A stretch of DNA of 17,603 nucleotides from an uncultured Rhodocyclaceae bacterium (GTDB taxonomy: Bacteria; Pseudomonadota; Gammaproteobacteria; Burkholderiales; Rhodocyclaceae): NCBI GenBank assembly GCA_903950295.1, contig CAJBAP010000422.1:1-17603 (forward strand), given 5' to 3'. This document shows, piece by piece, positions 7,051 to 17,603 of this stretch. The notes beneath the pieces are model-generated. The model ran no database searches and was not told where the DNA came from. It saw nothing but the letters and a program-made list of their open reading frames with translations. Position numbers and translations under genes: made by a program. Positions within the stretch are counted from its first letter, which is position 1. Every line of letters begins with the position of its first letter.

Positions 7051-8020
7051 CGATTTTCTCCAGGATAAAACGTGCGAGATCGGGTTCGATACGCGCCTCG
7101 ACGGGTAACACCCAGATCGGCAACGCGGTGAGGCCGGCGCATTTTAGCGCGTCCTTTTCTGTCATCAGAATTGCATCGCCAACAAAATCAAGGTCGGTGC
7201 TAACGTAATGATGGTGATCGGGGAAGCCGTGAGCCGCAAAGAACAGCCCCATGGCCGCAAGGTGATCGAAAAAACGCTGCGGTTCGCCAATGCCGGCGAC
7301 GGCATGCAGTTTGAGGCCAGCCAGATCACTGGCGACACAGGTCTCGCCCGAACTCTGCAGCCGGTAAAAACGGTCACCGGCCAGAAGCATGTCGAACGTC
7401 GGCAATTCCTTGACTGGTGCTGTTTCAGCACCGTTAAGCACCAGCGCATCAACATCCCTTAAACGCGTCACCGGTTCACGCAAGGGGCCCGCCGGCAAAG
7501 GCCAACCATTCATCAGGCCGCGTCGGTCGATCACGGCGATCTCCACGTCACGATAAAGCCGGTAGTGCTGCAAGCCATCGTCGCAGAGAATCAGGTCGCA
7601 CTCAGGATATGCGGCCAGCAAGGCACGCGCCGCCGCCGCACGATCGCTACCGACGAAAACCGGGCAGCCCGAGCGATGGGCGAGCAACAGAGGCTCATCA
7701 CCAACGGTCTCAACTGCCGTCCCGCCAGGACCGATTTTTACTTCCAGAACACCTGTCGTTTCGCGCCCGTAGCCACGACTGACAATACCGGGCTTATGGC
7801 GGGTCAGAGACAGTCGTTGTGCCAAATACAGTGTCAAAGGTGTCTTGCCGGCACCGCCAGCGATGAGATTGCCAACCACCACGACCGGCACTGGCAAACG
7901 CTCTGACTTTGCCCAACCCATTCGATAGACGAAGCGCCTCAATGCAGTGAGGGCAAAGAAGGCAAAGCCGAGCGGCAACAGAGCCCACGCCAGCACACCC
8001 CGGCCGCACCAGACGCCCAT
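7031..8020 (-). CDS. lpxK: tetraacyldisaccharide 4'-kinase
   Basis: LpxK phosphorylates the 4' position of the lipid A disaccharide at the inner membrane, making lipid IVA. The ATG at 8020 gives 329 residues, the normal length. An N-terminal hydrophobic helix (about residues 9-28) is followed by the Walker A region [13 protein letters not shown] (50-62) and later [20 protein letters not shown] and LPAGPLREP, all characteristic of the family. The frame is open further upstream into exbD, but those codons encode no LpxK-like sequence. The gene starts eight bases after the exbD stop and overlaps the Trm112-like gene by 20 bases, consistent with one transcript for outer-membrane biogenesis. Confidence 0.95.
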
Positions 8021-9202: not shown

Positions 9203-10618
9203 ATGGATTCCGCTCCGGATATCGCGACCACCATTGACGCTTGGCTGAGGCATTTCACCGCACATCGTGCCGTCTCGCCAACGCCGACTTTTTGTGAAAT
9301 CGGCGCCCCCGCAGATCCCTCCGTCACCCTGCCTGCGCTCGCCGCACTGGCCGCCGAGGCACTGGCACGCGATCGCACCCTCTGGATCATCACCGCCGAC
9401 GACGCGCTGCTGCCGGATATCTCCAACGCCCTCGACCTGAGCCTGCGTCCTCTTTGCCTGGTACTGCCCGGTGCGGACTACGCCGGTCGGATTGCACTGC
9501 GGGCCACGCTCTCGTTGCTGAAGAGTCGGCTGACACGCGCCGCCGAAGACAGTAATGGCCCCGCCTGGACCACCATGCGTGCGCACATCAAGAACGATGA
9601 TGCCCTGTGGCGTGCCTGCCTGGCCTGGAGCAAGCGCGGACTTGACAGCGAAGCACCACCCCCGGGGATTGGCAATTTATTTCCCGTGCGCATCGGCCCC
9701 TGGCAACTTGCTGAACGCCTTGACGCTCCCGCCGAGTGGGTGATGCTGGCGCAGGCAGGGCAACTCCCCGCAAACATCCGGACCCCCTGGCCGGGAGCAA
9801 ACTGCACGCTGATGCTCGCCGCAGGCCCCTTAAGTGGTACTACCGGCTTGGCGGTGATCGACGAAACCAGTCGCCTGCGCGCCGAACTCGAGGTGCTCGG
9901 ACAGGAATTGGCTGAAATGGAGCTGGAGCTTGCCACCGCACAAGGCGAACTGGCGGGATTTACCGAGCGCTATCACGCCCTGATCGCTGGCCGCATGGCG
10001 GAACTTGACCGTATTCAGGCCGATCTGGCGAAGCTCCGCATGCAGCACACGCCAGACGATCCACTGCTGAATACTGGCGCCGAAGAGGCCGAAGCCCGGG
10101 CCCAGCAATCACACCGGGAAAGCGAGGCCTACCGGACCAGGGAAGGAACCGGGGAGGAACGCTTTGCGCCCGGCAACGACCTCAAAAAACGCTTCCGTCA
10201 GTTGGCACAAAAGATTCACCCCGACCGGGCGACCAATGAATCCGACCGCGCCTGGCGTACTCAGCTGATGAGCGAGGCGAACCGGGCCTACCGCGCTGGC
10301 AATACTGGCGCCCTGGATGAGGTGCTTGCGCTTTGGCTCGAGGGCCGGAGCGATACCCGCCCCACGCCGGCAGCATCTACCTCCGCGGCTAGCGCAGCAC
10401 TTGCCGAGGAAGTGGCGAGAATTCGCCAGCGCCTTGCGGCCATCGTGTCCGAACTCGACAGGCTCTATGGCTCCAGACTTTACGAATTATTTGCTGCGGC
10501 ACGCGTTGCAACTCGCCAGGGGCGCGATCTGTTAAAAGAAATGGCCGAGCAGGTTGACCGCCAGATTGACCTGGCAAGTTCGCAGCTGGATCGTCTGGTC
10601 CAACCGGCAATGACCTAA
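9203..10618 (+). CDS. J-domain protein with central coiled coil and unidentified N-terminal region
   Basis: The 471-residue protein has a J domain at about residues 323-380: KRFRQLAQKIHPDRATNE contains the essential HPD tripeptide (339-341), followed by a helix MSEANRAYRAGN. J domains stimulate the ATPase of Hsp70/DnaK. Residues about 222-280 are Glu/Leu/Arg-rich and predicted to form a coiled coil, and another helical stretch runs from about 398 to 462. Residues 1-215 contain no domain I recognise. There is no signal peptide, membrane helix or Gly/Phe region, so this is not classical DnaJ. It stands alone on the plus strand, and its stop overlaps the stop of the convergent MBL gene by four bases. 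A dispersed repeat copy encodes residues around 23-32. The client is unknown. Confidence 0.82.
   Translation: MDSAPDIATTIDAWLRHFTAHRAVSPTPTFCEIGAPADPSVTLPALAALAAEALARDRTLWIITADDALLPDISNALDLSLRPLCLVLPGADYAGRIALRATLSLLKSRLTRAAEDSNGPAWTTMRAHIKNDDALWRACLAWSKRGLDSEAPPPGIGNLFPVRIGPWQLAERLDAPAEWVMLAQAGQLPANIRTPWPGANCTLMLAAGPLSGTTGLAVIDETSRLRAELEVLGQELAEMELELATAQGELAGFTERYHALIAGRMAELDRIQADLAKLRMQHTPDDPLLNTGAEEAEARAQQSHRESEAYRTREGTGEERFAPGNDLKKRFRQLAQKIHPDRATNESDRAWRTQLMSEANRAYRAGNTGALDEVLALWLEGRSDTRPTPAASTSAASAALAEEVARIRQRLAAIVSELDRLYGSRLYELFAAARVATRQGRDLLKEMAEQVDRQIDLASSQLDRLVQPAMT
9270..9296 (+). repeat. dispersed short repeat, copy 2 (inside the J-domain gene)
   Basis: This 27-base segment matches copy 4 at 24 of 27 positions, including 14 identical bases CGCCGACTTTTTGT. 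It lies in frame within the N-terminal coding region and encodes residues AVSPTPTF. Coding location makes chance or convergent origin more possible than for the other copies, but the degree of match argues for shared ancestry. Confidence 0.5.
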
Positions 10619-12417: not shown

Positions 12418-13302
12418 TCAGGCGGCCGCCACGCGCTCGTAATATCGTGCCCGGTAGAGCAGACGGCGCTTTTCGGGCGTTTCAGTGAAGCCACTTCGAT
12501 CGTGCAGCACATTGTTGCACACCAGGCCCATGCCGGGTTCCAGGCGACCATGCAAGGTCCAGGGCGTCGGCACGGAAAGGATACGCGCCAGTGCGGCAAC
12601 GGCAGCCTGGGTCAGTGAGTCGTCACGCCAGGCGATGCTGACGGTACGCGCCGTATAGCGCATATGCAGATAACCAGCAGCATCGACCGAAAAGACCGGG
12701 CCGGGTTGCGCTGCGCGCGCCACGCCAGCATCGTCCAGACGCGGCGGAATCGTCATCGCATCGGGAGCCAACAAGGCGCGGATGAACTCCGGATTTTCGT
12801 CGCGCAACAGGATGTAGGCGAGGTCATGATCGAGCAACTGGTTCTCGCCGCCACTGGCCGCGCTGCGTACGCAATGCAGGATCAGGCCCCGGATAGTGTG
12901 TTCCGGCAGGTTGTAATAGCCATCGGTGTGCCACCGGATCGGCTTGTCGGTATAGGGGATGAACTCCTTGCGCTCACCACGCGCCTCGGCACCAGTAACC
13001 GAGATCGGTGAGATACCATCATTGTCGGTCAGCCAGTGGCCATCAAGCGTCTTGAGACCCATCTGGTGGCCCAACAGGCGGGGGATGTCCTTGTCGGGAT
13101 CGGCGCCGGTCTTGCTGACATACACCGCCATGTTGCAGTTGGCATTAAGCTTGACCAGACCCTGACGCTCGGCCGGGTTCAGCCGACGCGGATCGTCGAT
13201 TTCGATAACGATATCATCCAGACGGCGCGGCGCGGTATCGAGCTTCTGCTCACGCCAGCGGGTGTAGGCAGCGACATCCTGCAGATCGAAAACTTCGGAC
13301 AT
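12418..13302 (-). CDS. TauD/TfdA-family Fe(II)/2-oxoglutarate-dependent dioxygenase
   Basis: The 294-residue protein has the facial triad of this family: His125 and Asp127 in RWHTDGYYN and distal His267 in NNVLHDRSGF. A conserved arginine near the C-terminus (RLLYRARYYER, Arg284 likely) would bind 2-oxoglutarate. Family members hydroxylate small organic substrates; TauD hydroxylates taurine and so releases sulfite. That would suit a neighbour of dsrAB, but substrate specificity cannot be inferred here and the protein is also reminiscent of the gamma-butyrobetaine/trimethyllysine branch. The ATG has GGGAGAG nine bases upstream, inside the end of the preceding gene, which ends six bases earlier. 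Oxygen dependence implies activity under oxic or micro-oxic conditions. Confidence 0.87.
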   Translation of the reverse strand: MSEVFDLQDVAAYTRWREQKLDTAPRRLDDIVIEIDDPRRLNPAERQGLVKLNANCNMAVYVSKTGADPDKDIPRLLGHQMGLKTLDGHWLTDNDGISPISVTGAEARGERKEFIPYTDKPIRWHTDGYYNLPEHTIRGLILHCVRSAASGGENQLLDHDLAYILLRDENPEFIRALLAPDAMTIPPRLDDAGVARAAQPGPVFSVDAAGYLHMRYTARTVSIAWRDDSLTQAAVAALARILSVPTPWTLHGRLEPGMGLVCNNVLHDRSGFTETPEKRRLLYRARYYERVAAA

Positions 13303-13308
13303 GATTGA

Positions 13309-13917
13309 TTACTCTCCCGTCGAATTGCCGTCCCGCTGGCGCCGACTTTTATTGGCCTCTGGGTGGAACAACCCGGCCAAGGTCTTTTCGAGCGCCTTCA
13401 AGGCTTCTGGCGACTCGATATCCATGGCCTGATCGACAACCCAGAGTTGATCCTTGGCGGGCAGCACCTCCCGTAAGCAGGCGGCAAAATAACGCTTGAA
13501 ACCAAAGTCTGGGCCTTTTTCGTCATAGTCGAATTCGGCGTAATCCGCCCCGCGACGATTGAATAGATCGAGAAAATATCGTGGCGCTGCGGCAGGCATC
13601 GCCGCACCCAACAAATCCTCGAAGTTTTCTACCAGCAGTTCGGAAAGACGCTTGGCGAGTGCGGTCGTAAACTCGACCCGTTGCGCTGCGGAAAGCTCAC
13701 GATAGGCGATGCGATCGGCCGCTTGCGCCAGAAAAATGACGAACTCGCAAATGAAATCGAAGTAAGGCCGGCCGATGTCGATGTCGTAGTCGGCTTGGCG
13801 CATGCGATTGATCGCGTCGATGGCGAGCTTCCATGCCAGCACGGCAACCGCACCGGCAAGTTCCGCCATCGTGCGCGGTCGGCTGGCATGAAAGCTTGAG
13901 CGAATGCGTACTGCCAT
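13309..13917 (-). CDS. uncharacterised 202-aa protein of the sulfur-relay operon
   Basis: I do not recognise this protein. It appears soluble, largely helical and acidic, with no signal peptide, no cysteine pair and no membrane helix. Notable stretches are AWKLAIDAINRMRQADYDID, PYFDFICEFVIFLAQAADRI and APRYFLDLFNRRGADYAEFD. Its start is uncertain: the ATG at 13917 has no good ribosome binding site, and an internal ATG at residue 17 is possible. It ends six bases before the dioxygenase start, so the two are probably co-expressed. The last dozen codons (NKSRRQRDGNSTG) are read through a copy of the dispersed repeat, so the basic tail may be a recent addition. A second repeat element separates it from the DsrC-like gene upstream. 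Confidence 0.75.
   Translation of the reverse strand: MAVRIRSSFHASRPRTMAELAGAVAVLAWKLAIDAINRMRQADYDIDIGRPYFDFICEFVIFLAQAADRIAYRELSAAQRVEFTTALAKRLSELLVENFEDLLGAAMPAAAPRYFLDLFNRRGADYAEFDYDEKGPDFGFKRYFAACLREVLPAKDQLWVVDQAMDIESPEALKALEKTLAGLFHPEANKSRRQRDGNSTGE
13328..13366 (+). repeat. dispersed short repeat, copy 3 (3' end of the 202-aa gene)
   Basis: CCGTCCCG (13328-13335) followed by CGCCGACTTTTA matches the consensus, then TTGGCCTCTGGGTGG resembles TTGGCCCCTCGGGGGG at 13992 in copy 4. Copy 3 thus looks like a short form of the element without the internal hairpin. It overlaps the final codons of the 202-aa protein on the minus strand. Confidence 0.6.
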
Positions 13918-13931
13918 CAGGAGAACATCCG

Positions 13932-14040
13932 CCGTCTCGTCAGCGCCGACTTTTTGTCACAACAAACTCGCCGGGTCGCCCCAAGAGTTTGTTGGCCCCT
14001 CGGGGGGAGGAGCGAGCGCAGCGAGATCATCGGGGTGGGG
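13932..14040 (+). repeat. larger composite repeat element with internal hairpin, copy 4
   Basis: The element starts with the 24-base repeat (CCGTCTCG...CGCCGACTTTTT), continues into a perfect 9-bp inverted repeat AACAAACTC (13961-13969) / GAGTTTGTT (13985-13993), then a purine/GC-rich part with CCCCTCGGGGGGAGG and GAGCGAGCGCAGCGAG ending in GGGGTGGGG. Its outer end abuts the stop codon of the DsrC-like gene, and its other end lies 14 bases from the start of the 202-aa gene. It fills nearly all of the 123-base gap, which is the longest inside this operon. The composition resembles dispersed intergenic repeats of betaproteobacteria; mobility is not shown. Confidence 0.65.
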
Positions 14041-14379
14041 CTAGTAGCCGCCCTTGCCCTTGGGTTGGGGCAACCCGCCCACACGACAGGCCTGCTTGGC
14101 AGCACCGCCATCCGGAAACAGGTCGAACATCAGCTTGTTGTCGGCCTCGGGCATATCGGCCTCTTCCTGCAGACCCTTGACCAGATTGCGCGCATTGGGC
14201 GTATGGCCATCTTCCTGGTATTTCTGGCGCAGGTAGTTGATGATCTTCCAGTGCTGATCGGTCAGTTCAATACTCTCGGCAGCGGCAAACGCTGCCACCG
14301 CCTCTTCACTAAAATCGGGTTCAAGTAAGTAGCCGTAATCGTCCACTTCCTTCTCGACACCGTTGATGATAATGCTCAT
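14041..14379 (-). CDS. DsrC/TusE-family sulfur-relay protein lacking the near-terminal CysA
   Basis: The 112-residue protein matches the family: DDYGYLLEPDFSEEAVAAFA near the N-terminus, then IELTDQHWKIINYLRQKYQE and a flexible C-terminal arm AAKQACRVGGLPQPKGKGGY. DsrC carries persulfide sulfur between TusA/DsrEFH and the sulfite reductase; TusE does so for tRNA thiolation. Canonical DsrC has two arm cysteines ten residues apart: CysB, and CysA next to the end. Here CysB is Cys98 but position 109, where CysA should be, is Lys, followed by Gly-Gly-Tyr. I know of DsrC (both), TusE (CysA only) and RspA (neither), so CysB alone is unusual. The ATG has a strong AGGAGG-like site. The stop codon touches a repeat element. 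It follows the tandem TusA gene by 35 bases. Confidence 0.9.
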   Translation of the reverse strand: MSIIINGVEKEVDDYGYLLEPDFSEEAVAAFAAAESIELTDQHWKIINYLRQKYQEDGHTPNARNLVKGLQEEADMPEADNKLMFDLFPDGGAAKQACRVGGLPQPKGKGGY

Positions 14380-14414
14380 GGACTCCTCCTCTAATTTGTG
14401 ACGGGGTTGGAAAA

Positions 14415-14897
14415 TTACTTCTTGCGCAGATAAAACTCGTGGGCATTCCTGGCCATTGGCAGTGAGGCCAGGAGTTCGATAGCAGCGGCACGCCCCCAGG
14501 ACTCGACATCGTCTACCGCACCCGGGCAGTCGCTCACCAGTTGCAGGACTTCGCCAGGCTTCATGCCATCGAGCAATTTCTTGGCTTCGAGGATCGGCCC
14601 CGGACAGGACACGCCGCGCATATCGAGCGTGGCATGGGCGATCGGCGTTGTACTGGCCCCACCGGCCTTGCGCAGGGTGTAGGCCGTCTTGCCATCGGGC
14701 TGCTTGATATTGCTGACCAACTCGTTGCCGGTGTATTTGCACCAGGCAGACAGGTCATCGGACGAGCCCGGACAATCGGACAGCAACAACATTGACTGCC
14801 CGGCTTGCAGGTCATCGATGATCTTTTTGGCGCCCAGCAAGGGTGCCGGGCAGGGCAGACCGGACAGATCAATGGTTACAGCAGGTTTATCGGGCAT
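14415..14897 (-). CDS. tandem TusA-domain sulfur carrier protein
   Basis: Two TusA-like domains are fused in 160 residues. The first has LSGLPCPAPLLGAKK with the CPxP active-site motif at Cys16, the second MRGVSCPGPILEAKKLLDG with Cys98. TusA proteins carry a persulfide on this cysteine. Both domains also hold a second cysteine in SDCPG (Cys42, Cys124), and the first has Cys53. The linker runs from about residue 76 to 88. Most TusA proteins have one domain of about 80 residues, so the duplication is notable. The ATG has AGGAG at eight bases. The next gene, DsrC-like, is a known family partner of TusA in sulfur transfer, both for Dsr sulfur oxidation and for tRNA 2-thiouridine synthesis. Confidence 0.92.
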   Translation of the reverse strand: MPDKPAVTIDLSGLPCPAPLLGAKKIIDDLQAGQSMLLLSDCPGSSDDLSAWCKYTGNELVSNIKQPDGKTAYTLRKAGGASTTPIAHATLDMRGVSCPGPILEAKKLLDGMKPGEVLQLVSDCPGAVDDVESWGRAAAIELLASLPMARNAHEFYLRKK

Positions 14898-14983
14898 GAG
14901 GGGAACTCCTGAAAAGCATGGTTATCAAGTCGGAAACAAGCACTCCGGGACTCCGGGCACAATAGCTGGGTAGTTCAGGTGGC

Positions 14984-15619
14984 TCATTCTAGCGTCCCAA
15001 CCGCGACGATCGTTTTACACGGAATAAATATTCCACAACCGCGCTTGCGTTCGCTGCCAAGTCCGTTGCGCTGCAACAGCAAGGCAGCATCGACTTTCAA
15101 ATCGTGCAGCATCAGGCTGAAACCAGCAAGGGTACCTTGCGGGGTACGGGCCTGCTGCGGCTTGCCGCAGATCAGACGCGGCGACACGCCCAATGCAGCC
15201 AATTCCTGACGACACGCATCCATGAAGGCATTTTCATCCGCAGTTCCCACCGTGACGAAAGCAGCATGCAGCACCGGTGCGTGCGCCAGATCACGCACCT
15301 TCGCTGCCCCGACGTCGATCATGCTGCCAGCCAGGTGCAGACGCGACCCGACCAGAGCTTGCGCAGCCGCCACCCGGCCGCGCGCCAAACGCAAGGTCAA
15401 CCGGGAGCGCCGCGACAGATAACACGTACCTTCACCCGAACCCGGACTCAAACCTGACAGATGATGAATGCCGGCAAGCGTATCGCTTTCGAGCCAGGGG
15501 AGCACCTCGCGTATCGCATCCCAAAGAGCGGAGCCATGATCCAGGGGGGCAGCGTAGCCCTGCACGATGAACTGCAGATCGACAAACTGCTCCGCAGCAT
15601 CGGTCGGCAGCAAACTCAT
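14984..15619 (-). CDS. Cas6/Cmx6-like RNA endonuclease homologue without a CRISPR array
   Basis: The 211-residue protein resembles the Cas6/Cmx6 family (annotated elsewhere as type I-MYXAN Cas6). Family-like stretches are FVDLQFIVQGYAAPLDHGSA at the N-terminus, YLSRRSRLTLRLARGRV in the middle, and the C-terminal GFSLMLHDL followed by GLGSERKRGCGIFIPCKTI (186-204). That last part is the glycine-rich loop typical of the RAMP/Cas6 ferredoxin-like fold, which binds RNA. His28, His52 or His53 could serve as general base. Cas6 enzymes cut CRISPR precursor RNA; no repeats or other cas genes are visible here. The ATG overlaps the stop of the upstream gene as ATGA. The family call is from memory of sequence pattern; RNA cleavage is unproven and the job in a sulfur operon is unknown. 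Confidence 0.78.
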   Translation of the reverse strand: MSLLPTDAAEQFVDLQFIVQGYAAPLDHGSALWDAIREVLPWLESDTLAGIHHLSGLSPGSGEGTCYLSRRSRLTLRLARGRVAAAQALVGSRLHLAGSMIDVGAAKVRDLAHAPVLHAAFVTVGTADENAFMDACRQELAALGVSPRLICGKPQQARTPQGTLAGFSLMLHDLKVDAALLLQRNGLGSERKRGCGIFIPCKTIVAVGTLE

Positions 15620-15909
15620 TGCTCCGCCTTCGCTCCATCCAGTTGCTGTTTCGACCACGCAACCATCAAGTCACCCCAACGACCGGCAGTCACCGCATCG
15701 ATGTCGAAAATGGTGAAGCGTGAGTGCTCCCTGATGCGCAAGCGCAACAGCGACATGCCACCCGCCTCGGATTCAATCTGTTGCAATTCAATTTCCTGAT
15801 TGCCGATAGGCACACGAAACTTGTCGATACTGGTAATCTGGTCCACGGTCGGGTTACCAATTTGATAAGAAGGATGAAGCACTGAACTGGGGGCGGACTG
15901 TCGCATCAC
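15616..15909 (-). CDS. small conserved-looking protein at the head of the sulfur-relay operon
   Basis: The frame encodes up to 97 residues with a core from about residue 27 to 87: FRVPIGNQEIELQQIESEAG, SLLRLRIREHSRFTIFDIDA, then TAGRWGDLMVAWSKQQLDG. The alternating strands and a final helix suggest a small alpha/beta protein. It brings to mind the uncharacterised DUF6967 group, which I could not check. No catalytic motif, cysteine or membrane segment is seen. The start is unclear: an ATG at 15909 lacks a ribosome binding site, and a GTG at codon 22 would start close to the conserved core. Its stop overlaps the start of the Cas6-like gene, so the two are likely translationally coupled. It is the first gene facing away from dsrA. 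Confidence 0.72.
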   Translation of the reverse strand: MMRQSAPSSVLHPSYQIGNPTVDQITSIDKFRVPIGNQEIELQQIESEAGGMSLLRLRIREHSRFTIFDIDAVTAGRWGDLMVAWSKQQLDGAKAEQ

Positions 15910-16107
15910 AAGACATTCGAGGCCATCACCGAGACGGGTGGAGCCAACTACTCCATCCGGGTAGGTTCCCCTAATCCCACGAAAGAGGTTATTCTACTCG
16001 GCGGAGGTATGGCGCACAGACGGGTGCCGACCTGATAATTGCAAAAAATTCGGAACTGGACGCGCGCCACGCGAACATTTCCCCAACAGCCACGAAGAGG
16101 AGACAAC
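15910..16107. promoter_or_regulatory. divergent control region between the sulfur-relay operon and dsrA
   Basis: This 198-base region separates two oppositely transcribed sulfur gene sets and must hold both promoters. Near dsrA there is an AT-rich stretch (about 16033-16051) and a strong ribosome binding site GAAGAGGAGA (16094-16103). A hairpin lies at 15935-15959: CGGGTGGAG pairs with CTCCATCCG around a 7-base loop, with one G-U pair on the plus-strand RNA. TAGAAT on the minus strand (about 15992-15997) could be a -10 box for the relay operon, but its -35 partner is poor. No known riboswitch or regulator site was recognised. Confidence 0.5.
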
Positions 16108-17403
16108 ATGGCCAAACAGCCTCACGCTACCCCTTTGCTTGACCAACTCGAGACCGGCCCCTGGCCGAGCTTTGTTACGGGTTTGAAGCGTCTTGCCAAG
16201 GACAAGGATTACGTCGTCGATCTGCTCGGCCACCTCGAGCATTCCTACAAGACCCGCAAGGGCTACTGGAAAGGTGGCACGGTCGGCGTCGTCGGCTATG
16301 GTGGTGGTGTGATCCCCCGCTTCACCGAGATCAAGGACGACAAGGGCGCTGCGGTTTTCAAGGACGCCGCCGAGTTCCACACGATCCGCATCATGCCGCC
16401 CCCTGGCATGCACTACGATACCGATACCCTGCGCAAGTTCTGCGACGTCTGGGAAAAGTACGGTTCCGGCCTGATCGCATTGCATGGCCAGTCCGGCGAC
16501 ATCATGATGCAGGGCTGCACCACTGAAAACGTCCAGAAGGCCTGGGACGAAATCAACATGATGGGTTTCGACATGGGTGGCGCCGGTCCGGCCGTCCGCA
16601 CCTCGATGTCCTGCGTGGGCGCCGCGCGTTGCGAGCAGTCCTGCTACGATGAAGCCAAGGCTCACCAGATGGTGATCAACACCTTCCTCGACGACATCCA
16701 TCGTCCCGCCCTGCCCTACAAGTTCAAGTTCAAGTTCTCCGGTTGCGGCAACGACTGCATGAACTCGATTCAGCGTTCCGACATGGCCGTCATCGGCACC
16801 TGGCGTGACAACATGACCACCGACAACGCCATGGGCAAAAAGTGGTTCGCCAAACATGGCATGAACGAGTTGGTCAATGACGTCATCGGCATGTGCCCGA
16901 CCCGCGCCCTGCAGATCAAGGACGCCAAGGATGTACGCAAGGATGCGCACATTTCCTCTGTTGCCCTGAACGATGCCCAGTGCCTCGAAATCGACAACAA
17001 GGACTGCGTCCGCTGCATGCACTGCATCAACGTCATGACTGGCGCCCTCGGCGTCGGCAAGGACAAGGGTGCCACCATCCTGATCGGCGGCAAGAGCCAC
17101 CTCAAGATCGGTGCAACGATGGGTACGGTGATCGTCCCCTTCATGTCCCTGAAGAATGACGAAGACTACGACAAGATCGTTGAACTGGCTCAGGCTGCTA
17201 TCGATTTCTTCGCTGAAAACGCCCTCGAGCATGAGCGTACCGGTGAGATGATTGAACGTATTGGCCTGGTCAACTTCCTGGAAGGTATCGGTGTGGATGT
17301 CGATGCCAACATGGTCACCAACCCACGTATGAACCCCTATGTTCGTACCGACGGCTGGGACGAGGAAGTCGCCAAGATCAACGCCAAGAAAGCAGCAGCC
17401 TAA
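16108..17403 (+). CDS. dsrA: dissimilatory sulfite reductase, alpha subunit
   Basis: The 431-residue subunit partners with DsrB to interconvert sulfite and sulfide-level sulfur using siroheme and iron-sulfur clusters. Both cluster motifs are present: Cys169-x5-Cys175 (SCVGAARC) and Cys213-x3-Cys217 (SGCGNDC), which bind the siroheme-coupled 4Fe-4S. A ferredoxin-type insert follows with Cys300-x2-Cys303-x2-Cys306 (CVRCMHC) and an upstream CP at Cys263. Length agrees with DsrA. I chose the ATG at 16108 because it has GAAGAGGAGA five bases ahead and MAKQPHATPLLDQLETGPWP is a typical start; the frame is open upstream but unlike the family. dsrB follows after 117 bases. Oxidative rather than reductive operation is inferred from the TusA/DsrC-bearing divergent operon and the betaproteobacterial setting, not from DsrA itself. 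Confidence 0.97.
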   Translation: MAKQPHATPLLDQLETGPWPSFVTGLKRLAKDKDYVVDLLGHLEHSYKTRKGYWKGGTVGVVGYGGGVIPRFTEIKDDKGAAVFKDAAEFHTIRIMPPPGMHYDTDTLRKFCDVWEKYGSGLIALHGQSGDIMMQGCTTENVQKAWDEINMMGFDMGGAGPAVRTSMSCVGAARCEQSCYDEAKAHQMVINTFLDDIHRPALPYKFKFKFSGCGNDCMNSIQRSDMAVIGTWRDNMTTDNAMGKKWFAKHGMNELVNDVIGMCPTRALQIKDAKDVRKDAHISSVALNDAQCLEIDNKDCVRCMHCINVMTGALGVGKDKGATILIGGKSHLKIGATMGTVIVPFMSLKNDEDYDKIVELAQAAIDFFAENALEHERTGEMIERIGLVNFLEGIGVDVDANMVTNPRMNPYVRTDGWDEEVAKINAKKAAA

Positions 17404-17429
17404 AACACCGATCACACCGTCTGACCGAC

Positions 17430-17454
17430 GCCGAACCCTGTTGCTGGGTTCGGC
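17430..17454 (+). other. hairpin between dsrA and dsrB
   Basis: GCCGAACCC (17430-17438) and GGGTTCGGC (17446-17454) form a perfect 9-bp stem with a 7-base loop, 26 bases after the dsrA stop. No T-run follows, so it is unlikely to be a complete terminator. It may stabilise the dsrA end of the transcript, set a dsrA:dsrB ratio, or attenuate. Confidence 0.55.
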
Positions 17455-17520
17455 TTGCGGCCAGGGTGAAGTCCCTACTCGAATAGCGACAATTCACAAC
17501 AATTATTGCGGAGACGATTC

Positions 17521-17603
17521 ATGGCTCAACCTCAGATGCGCAAGCCAGTCGAGCATTTCCTCGACAACAAGAAGTTCCTGCACCCGAAATTCGCCGCCAA
17601 CTA
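17521..17603 (+). CDS. dsrB: dissimilatory sulfite reductase, beta subunit, N-terminal part (runs off the window)
   Basis: The plus strand from the ATG at 17521 encodes MAQPQMRKPVEHFLDNKKFL then HPKFAANY, 27 full codons up to the window edge. The FLHP-containing start and the position directly after dsrA are as expected for DsrB, which carries the catalytically active siroheme in the alpha2beta2 enzyme. GGAGA lies eight bases upstream of the start codon. The cofactor motifs are outside the window, so the call rests on context and this short N-terminus. Confidence 0.88.
   Translation, partial: MAQPQMRKPVEHFLDNKKFLHPKFAAN

Follow-up and report, generated by a model that had tools for sequence, protein, structure and literature searches.

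A gene of the CRISPR RNA-processing family Cas6 that lies among sulfur genes raises a simple question: does it still serve CRISPR, or has it been recruited for another purpose? The case comes from a 17,603-nucleotide stretch of DNA from an uncultured Rhodocyclaceae bacterium (GenBank assembly GCA_903950295.1, contig CAJBAP010000422.1), referred to here as the window, in which the original prediction placed a Cas6/Cmx6-like protein inside a sulfur-carrier operon. Reverse-Dsr (rDsr) oxidizers, marine and symbiotic sulfur bacteria among them, matter to the sulfur cycle, and both the regulation of the dsr operon and the traffic of DsrC are poorly understood.

The Cas6-like gene and its neighbours in the window

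In profile searches the protein scored 180.8 bits against Pfam PF09559 (curated cut-off 26.7) and 149.9 bits against NCBIfam TIGR02807 cas6_cmx6 (curated cut-off 98.85), and its glycine-rich loop, GLGSERKRGCGIF, occupies residues 186-198. The AlphaFold model (pLDDT 92.1, pTM 0.88) adopts a full-length Cas6 fold whose best matches in both Foldseek and VIA-align are type I-B CAST Cas6 proteins (the structural comparison covers Foldseek's top candidates only, and other folds may match as well). The predicted Cas6/Cmx6 homology, with its C-terminal glycine-rich loop, is thereby borne out, the profile search and the structure prediction having both returned Cas6 rather than no match. The homologues are under purifying selection as judged from their coding sequences, with dN/dS values of 0.06-0.24 in 11 of 13 pairs and of 0.43 and 0.49 in the remaining two.

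The surroundings of the gene are largely as predicted: an ATGA overlap couples it to the small gene before it, and tandem TusA and then a DsrC-like gene come after it (Table 1). The original prediction did not mention dsrA on the opposite strand, the neighbour that decides the context of the Cas6-like gene; the open reading frame from 17521, which is cut by the window end, is, by its location and start, taken to be dsrB. The "sulfur-carrier operon" has accordingly to be redrawn in part: the link to sulfur genes recurs in other genomes, but the setting is a cassette divergent from dsrAB in which tandem TusA is optional. In the TauD/DsrQ-type protein the Fe(II)-binding HxD motif reads HTD, and HxD is present in all 63 homologues that score at least 100 bits, while the conserved protein encoded before it, c8, has no Pfam match.

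We saw no CRISPR-like array in the window and no other cas gene, including cas3, cas5, cas7 and cas8, among its annotated neighbours, in agreement with the orphan position first described. A simple array finder run on 86 regions, the window included, likewise reported no array except one 3-copy 23-mer in L129, and thus no sign within these regions of a type I CRISPR locus to which the gene might belong; the finder is not sensitive, since it was positive in only 2 of 6 plasmid control regions. The window also carries five copies of a 27-nt dispersed repeat, GCCGTCTCGCCAACGCCGACTTTTTGT and others at 70-93% identity, possibly a REP-like element or a shared terminator.

Table 1. Features of the window around the Cas6-like gene
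Feature	Position	Strand	Evidence or remark
TauD/DsrQ-type 2-oxoglutarate dioxygenase, HxD motif	12418..13302	-	PF02668 E 1.6e-15
Conserved uncharacterised protein c8, 202 aa	13309..13917	-	Homologues in 52/80 Cas6 loci
DsrC paralogue, KGGY end, penultimate carrier cysteine absent	14041..14379	-	PF04358 E 1.7e-30
Tandem TusA, two domains, CPxP cysteine motif in each	14415..14897	-	Profile match and motif
Cas6-fold protein, 211 aa	14984..15619	-	PF09559 and TIGR02807 cas6_cmx6 profiles
DUF6967 (PF22295) small protein, 97 aa	15616..15909	-	E 4.4e-27; ATGA overlap with the Cas6-like gene
Imperfect palindrome CTACTC-CATCC-GGGTAG	15948..15964	.	Divergent intergenic region
dsrA, dissimilatory sulfite reductase alpha subunit	16105..17403	+	TIGR02064 504.5 bits, cut-off 392.85; divergent from the cassette
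27-nt repeat copies	1732-1758, 7716-7742, 9269-9295, 13327-13353, 13931-13957

Linkage to dsrA and separation from CRISPR loci

Starting from five Rhodocyclaceae MAG loci (L001-L005) found in one scan of genome contigs, we surveyed a non-random sample of 369 genomes of the same class, taken as Gammaproteobacteria including Rhodocyclaceae. PF09559 was above its cut-off in 118 of them and dsrA was strong in 119 (112 above cut-off; incomplete genes were counted too, the weakest being a 6e-33 fragment in G243). Both genes occurred in 111 genomes, only Cas6 in 7, only dsrA in 8 and neither in 243 (Fisher odds ratio 482, p 7e-75, with genomes treated as independent and kinship ignored), so that the Cas6-like gene is present in 111 of the 119 dsrA-bearing genomes. 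Among the eight genomes with dsrA only, dsrA lies less than 700 bp from a contig edge in four (G075, G084, G115 and G212), the cassette is cut off in G128, and G243 holds nothing more than the dsrA fragment; the upstream sequence of G216 and G360 (about 4.8 kb and 1.8 kb) contains no cassette gene.

For the comparison of gene neighbourhoods, 80 regions were hand-picked, mostly from long contigs: 57 from the 118 Cas6-bearing class genomes, 3 from class genomes with DUF6967 and no Cas6, and 20 from 83 family-level DUF6967 matches. Because the family-level regions were chosen through DUF6967, that domain is over-represented. After leaving out L134 (the same place as L001), L131-L133 (without Cas6) and L146 and L149 (a cassette without Cas6), the remaining regions together with the window and L001-L005 make up the final 80 Cas6 loci, in which cassette genes were identified by profiles. 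The fetched sequence includes dsrA in 69 of these loci, divergent in 69/69 and less than 3 kb away in 67; it is absent from the fetched region in the other 11, some of which are near contig ends. Among the 56 class regions, which were selected by Cas6 and not by dsr, dsrA is present in 45. In three small genomes (L118, L119 and L122, 1.4-1.6 Mb; around position 8000) the Cas6-like gene lies away from dsr and, by eye, adjoins a putative RNase III gene; residue 52 of these proteins is Phe, not His.

In a phylum sample of 299 genomes, dsrA was found in 52. With two of these (G001 and G392) excluded as already known, PF09559 was absent, outside the class, from 48 of the 50 dsrA-bearing genomes, which indicates that the Dsr pathway does not need Cas6; the other two, G964 and G991, carry it divergent from dsrA and in the same cassette. 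Among 30 compared dsrA loci, 24 encode a protein with at most 54% identity to the window DsrA.

The gene might instead be an ordinary crRNA-processing Cas6 that acts in trans on an array elsewhere in the genome, as its family name and profile would imply. Cas1 has a match in 38 of the 80 Cas6-bearing genomes searched (the first 80 of 118, many of them drafts) and by the positions listed is on the same contig as Cas6 in five, about 22 kb apart in G244; but in the remaining four (G066, G127, G130 and G190) the distance is about 250 kb or more, Cas1 was not found in 42 of the 80, and the gene tracks dsrA, all of which makes service in trans highly improbable. Nor do we give much credence to a decaying CRISPR relic: the surroundings without cas genes and the two cassettes that lack Cas6 (L146 and L149) would suit one, but purifying selection, the recurrent synteny and the near-constant company of dsrA render this scarcely believable.

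Other relatives of the protein are found on plasmids. All seven plasmid relatives are cyanobacterial. Of the six inspected, the Gloeobacter one has no annotated cas operon around it, and the other five belong to annotated type I-MYXAN cas operons; no phage record matches the protein. The Gloeobacter case, on plasmid pGMOR1 of Gloeobacter morelensis (L160, 5977-8549), is a Cas6/Cmx6 gene outside any annotated cas operon shown, followed by hypothetical, phosphoadenosine phosphosulfate reductase-family and cupin genes, and is another non-standard context for this Cas6 family. A small comparison set (n=7) was formed from 8fcj and these six genes, all cyanobacterial, five from annotated cas operons and the Gloeobacter gene without one. 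In a quick tree without bootstrap, one branch (SH-aLRT 98) separates all 80 proteins of the Cas6 loci, called dsr-type below, from the seven comparison Cas6. Taken with the gene neighbourhoods, the Cas6-like protein suggests an immune protein that was recruited into sulfur metabolism.

Cassette partners and the KGGY-tailed DsrC paralogue

The original prediction had proposed a survey of homologues beside tandem TusA and DsrC. Its DsrC half stood, as a KGGY-tailed DsrC paralogue accompanies Cas6 in 68 of the 80 loci, but tandem TusA (TusA2) does so in just 12 and was rejected as a core partner. The other main partners are DUF6967 or a second small protein, c9s (73 loci), TauD (61) and c8 (52), with c11s (29) and c20 (20) as minor members. 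The 56 class regions contain KGGY in 44, TauD in 38, c9s in 47, DUF6967 in 2 and TusA2 in 0; in the 18 family regions dsrA, KGGY and DUF6967 are each present in 18, TauD in 17 and TusA2 in 11. The usual class order, reading away from dsrA, is TauD, c9s, (c20), Cas6, DsrC-KGGY, (c11s), and the Rhodocyclaceae-type order, that of the window, is DUF6967, Cas6, (TusA2), DsrC-KGGY, c8, TauD. A second 2-oxoglutarate oxygenase, of the PKHD type (PF13640; cluster c10, e.g. L137 3765-4436), was found in 29 clustered regions, often right beyond the cassette.

DUF6967 and Cas6 are fused in 10 proteins among the 120 homologues listed of 264 found (for example Sulfuricystis multivorans P0029), and these natural fusions argue that the two act together; the model of the fused protein has a mean pLDDT of 82.5, with 60-72 in the DUF6967 part. 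Across the 80 Cas6 loci c9s and DUF6967 are mutually exclusive, and in four dsrA regions lacking Cas6 they are adjacent (DUF6967 31.6-71.1 bits, c9s 75-85 bits). A single family comprising both was considered and is unsupported (hhalign probability 2%). The three class genomes with DUF6967 and no Cas6 show unrelated neighbour genes that give no functional clue.

Several loci show the cassette without its Cas6-like member. In two Rhodocyclaceae-type cassettes (L146 7549-8201 and L149 7573-8201) DUF6967 is followed directly by the KGGY DsrC, with no Cas6 found. Four genomes outside the class, all lacking Cas6 (G937, G851, G989 and G977), carry TauD, c9s and a DUF6967-like gene in divergent orientation to dsrA. 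The KGGY paralogue was sought in 40 genomes, and its tail was read in the 5 in which the match extended to the final residue; in these it lay outside the dsr cassette, at a distance of 14 kb in G937 and on a different contig in G851, G989, G977 and G1034. Since they are present in dsrA genomes without Cas6, TauD, the small proteins and KGGY-DsrC do not need it, and this argues against Dsr oxidation depending on Cas6 in general. Together with DsrQ and the small proteins, KGGY-DsrC appears to make up a more widespread rDsr accessory set, to which Cas6 appears to be a lineage-specific recruit.

The DsrC paralogue of the window ends in ACRVGGLPQPKGKGGY, with one cysteine and the penultimate one missing. 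Among 140 DsrC-family matches in the 80 loci, 68 end in GY (67 of them KGGY), 65 in GCV or GCI, and 7 otherwise; the GCV/GCI ends belong to the dsr-operon DsrC of the same loci, as in sulfur-carrying DsrC, and 47 of the 68 GY-ending paralogues contain no cysteine at all. With the tail cysteine pattern absent, the cassette DsrC cannot be a two-cysteine carrier, and the invariant KGGY tail suggests a binding arm.

This pattern bears on a reading in which the cassette would thiolate RNA through a sulfur relay: the Cas6-like protein would hold the RNA, and TusA and the TusE/DsrC-like protein would bring the sulfur to it. In E. coli TusA and TusE belong to the sulfur relay to tRNA, and in the window tandem TusA, with both cysteines present, follows the Cas6-like gene; but the relay would have to run through a DsrC paralogue without its carrier cysteine, and tandem TusA is missing from most loci, so that we regard it as improbable. 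A regulatory DsrC relative is plausible, since in A. vinosum DsrC itself is stated to bind to the DNA upstream of dsr (PMC5944118).

Ligand, function and known systems

What the Cas6-like protein might bind was considered from its conserved residues, its charge and the structure of nearby transcripts. Residues were counted in 77 dsr-type proteins (the 80 less L118, L119 and L122). F17, P41, R77, Q183 and the glycine loop are common to these and the seven comparison Cas6, each of G186, G188, G194 and G196 being present in at least 75 of the 77 and at least 6 of the 7. Near-invariant residues of the dsr-type proteins' own are W42 (71), H52 (72), R71 (76), E129 (75) and G152 (76); H201 is found in 68 and K202 in 74, and the window protein has C201. 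An N-terminal tryptophan-acidic motif (e.g. MFWQED) was found by pattern search in 47 of the 56 proteins outside the window's type and in 0 of 24 within it. His52 aligns with a His of CAST Cas6 8fcj, and the other six comparison proteins have Q, N, A, N, N and L at this position; with His in only 1 of 7, position 52 is no general catalytic residue of this Cas6 family. By spacing it may be the counterpart of His46 of Pyrococcus Cas6; hhalign against that protein gave no significant match. The dsr-type proteins are mostly acidic (n=80; median charge -3, range -14 to 12; median pI 6.0; pI below 6.5 in 58 and above 8 in 5), the window protein having a charge of -1 and a pI of 6.7, and the comparison Cas6 lie at +5 to +10 and pI 9.2-9.6.

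Between dsrA and the cassette a palindrome, TA-H-Y-CC-N3-5-R-GG-D-TA, occurs in 28 of 71 loci (mean 0.15 and at most 1 in shuffled sequences). Its exact form TAYCCCNNNNGGGATA, sought in 20 genomes, matched in 13, at 18 distinct places of which 9 are by their coordinates in the dsrA-cassette interval, and the window palindrome is a probable degenerate counterpart of the TATCCC-N4-GGGATA element of other loci. An RNA hairpin was considered for the palindrome and set aside, since the half-sites are kept where pairing is broken (e.g. TAACCCTTTCGGGTAGG); in our judgement this conservation marks a DNA operator, probably that of the divergent promoter. A promoter and terminator scan of window positions 13900-16200 gave nothing above shuffles.

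Hairpin energies were compared with plain shuffles. The dsrC-dsrM intergenic region (L078-L157) holds a strong GC-rich hairpin, with a median best energy of -21.6 against -11.8 kcal/mol shuffled in 66 loci, which may determine how much of the operon transcript is dsrC. A modest structure excess is seen in the 150 nt before dsrA (-14.4 against -11.0 kcal/mol, 71 loci), and none in the sequence from Cas6 to the KGGY gene (-6.8 against -6.4, 56 loci).

These structures, together with the intact Cas6 fold and glycine-rich loop and a His52 that is nearly constant and shared with 8fcj, invite the reading that the protein actively binds or cleaves RNA, its target having shifted from CRISPR repeats to a hairpin in the dsr or another transcript, and that it thereby sets the ratio of Dsr proteins. 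The dsrC-dsrM hairpin is, however, equally strong in the cassette loci without Cas6 (-31.5 kcal/mol in L146 and -27.2 in L149) and ranges from -8.8 to -30.7 kcal/mol in nine further regions in which Cas6 was not detected. Rfam gave no match at window positions 13900-17603, and the acidic composition, the scatter of residues at position 52 and the hhalign result against Pyrococcus speak against it as well. We therefore hold RNA-directed activity, the chief rival to our own reading, to be possible but unlikely.

Instead, we infer that the Cas6-like protein acts by binding rather than by crRNA processing, and with about even confidence we see in it a domesticated Cas6 that serves as a binding subunit in a module assisting or regulating rDsr. 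Chiefly on the ground of the mostly acidic composition we place a protein ligand before RNA and lean towards the former; an overall charge of this kind is compatible with a local basic patch, and the conserved residues would suit the binding or cleavage of RNA equally well. In the mechanism that we propose, a complete Cas6-fold protein would have left CRISPR to become a standing accessory of the reverse-Dsr locus in this class. With the KGGY-tailed DsrC paralogue and either DUF6967 or c9s as partners it would form a small complex, whose genes would be expressed in the direction opposite to dsr from a promoter region common to both; this complex would tune either the expression of rDsr or the supply of DsrC and sulfur. 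Conserved His52, Arg71, Arg77 and Lys202 with the glycine-rich loop may make up the ligand site, and DsrQ (TauD) could supply a modification or signal dependent on O2 and 2-oxoglutarate. More tentatively, the wider claim would be that a protein from the processing of CRISPR RNA has been recruited for good into a central energy pathway, is near-universal in rDsr Gammaproteobacteria and controls or assembles the sulfur-oxidation machinery through RNA or through the DsrC paralogue that lacks the carrier cysteine.

On the binding-subunit reading the gene, which accompanies dsrA so regularly in the sampled class, is a candidate missing component of rDsr, and it would clearly exemplify the domestication of a Cas protein for a role other than immunity, with a new non-immune Cas function in a large share of the class's rDsr sulfur oxidizers. 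Public databases label it a CRISPR protein, and counting it so would inflate CRISPR statistics (118 of the 369 class genomes in our non-random sample).

Parts of the cassette have precedents in sulfur oxidizers. Lenk and colleagues reportedly described, in 2012, a dsrQ/tauD gene divergent from dsr clusters. A tauD/dsrQ gene next to dsr, often divergent, is already known, and DsrQ has been speculated to release sulfite from sulfonates (PMC7596348). Those clusters and the window share a TauD-family gene beside dsr, but in the window TauD is the last cassette gene, not the first; the section on dsrQ in PMC7596348 contains no mention of Cas6 or of a KGGY-tailed DsrC paralogue, and the terms "Cas6" and "CRISPR" are absent from its main text. 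Extra DsrC proteins of the same family as the cassette paralogue are reported, in the accessible parts of the respective papers, for the Solemya velum symbiont (DsrC-family genes without the two C-terminal cysteines; PMC4287430) and for Thiodictyon (THSYN_22565, a homologue numbered close to the dsr cluster; PMC5944118), where no Cas6 link or KGGY tail is mentioned. Our literature search, with supplements and most subscription papers outside its scope, found no paper that ties Cas6 to dsr.

Among Cas6 proteins, the CRISPR endoribonuclease of Pyrococcus furiosus (3i4h, 3pkm) has 11% identity to the window protein, and a profile alignment with its N-terminal piece was not significant. Closest are Cas6/Cmx6 of type I-MYXAN (I-B-like) systems and Cas6 of type I-B CAST (8fcj, 8fcu), which are alike in family, full-length fold and glycine-rich loop. 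Unlike these, the window gene has no array or cas3, cas5, cas7 or cas8 beside it and is tied to dsr, and the dsr-type group to which it belongs is mostly acidic, with H52, R71, E129, G152 and K202 as residues of its own.
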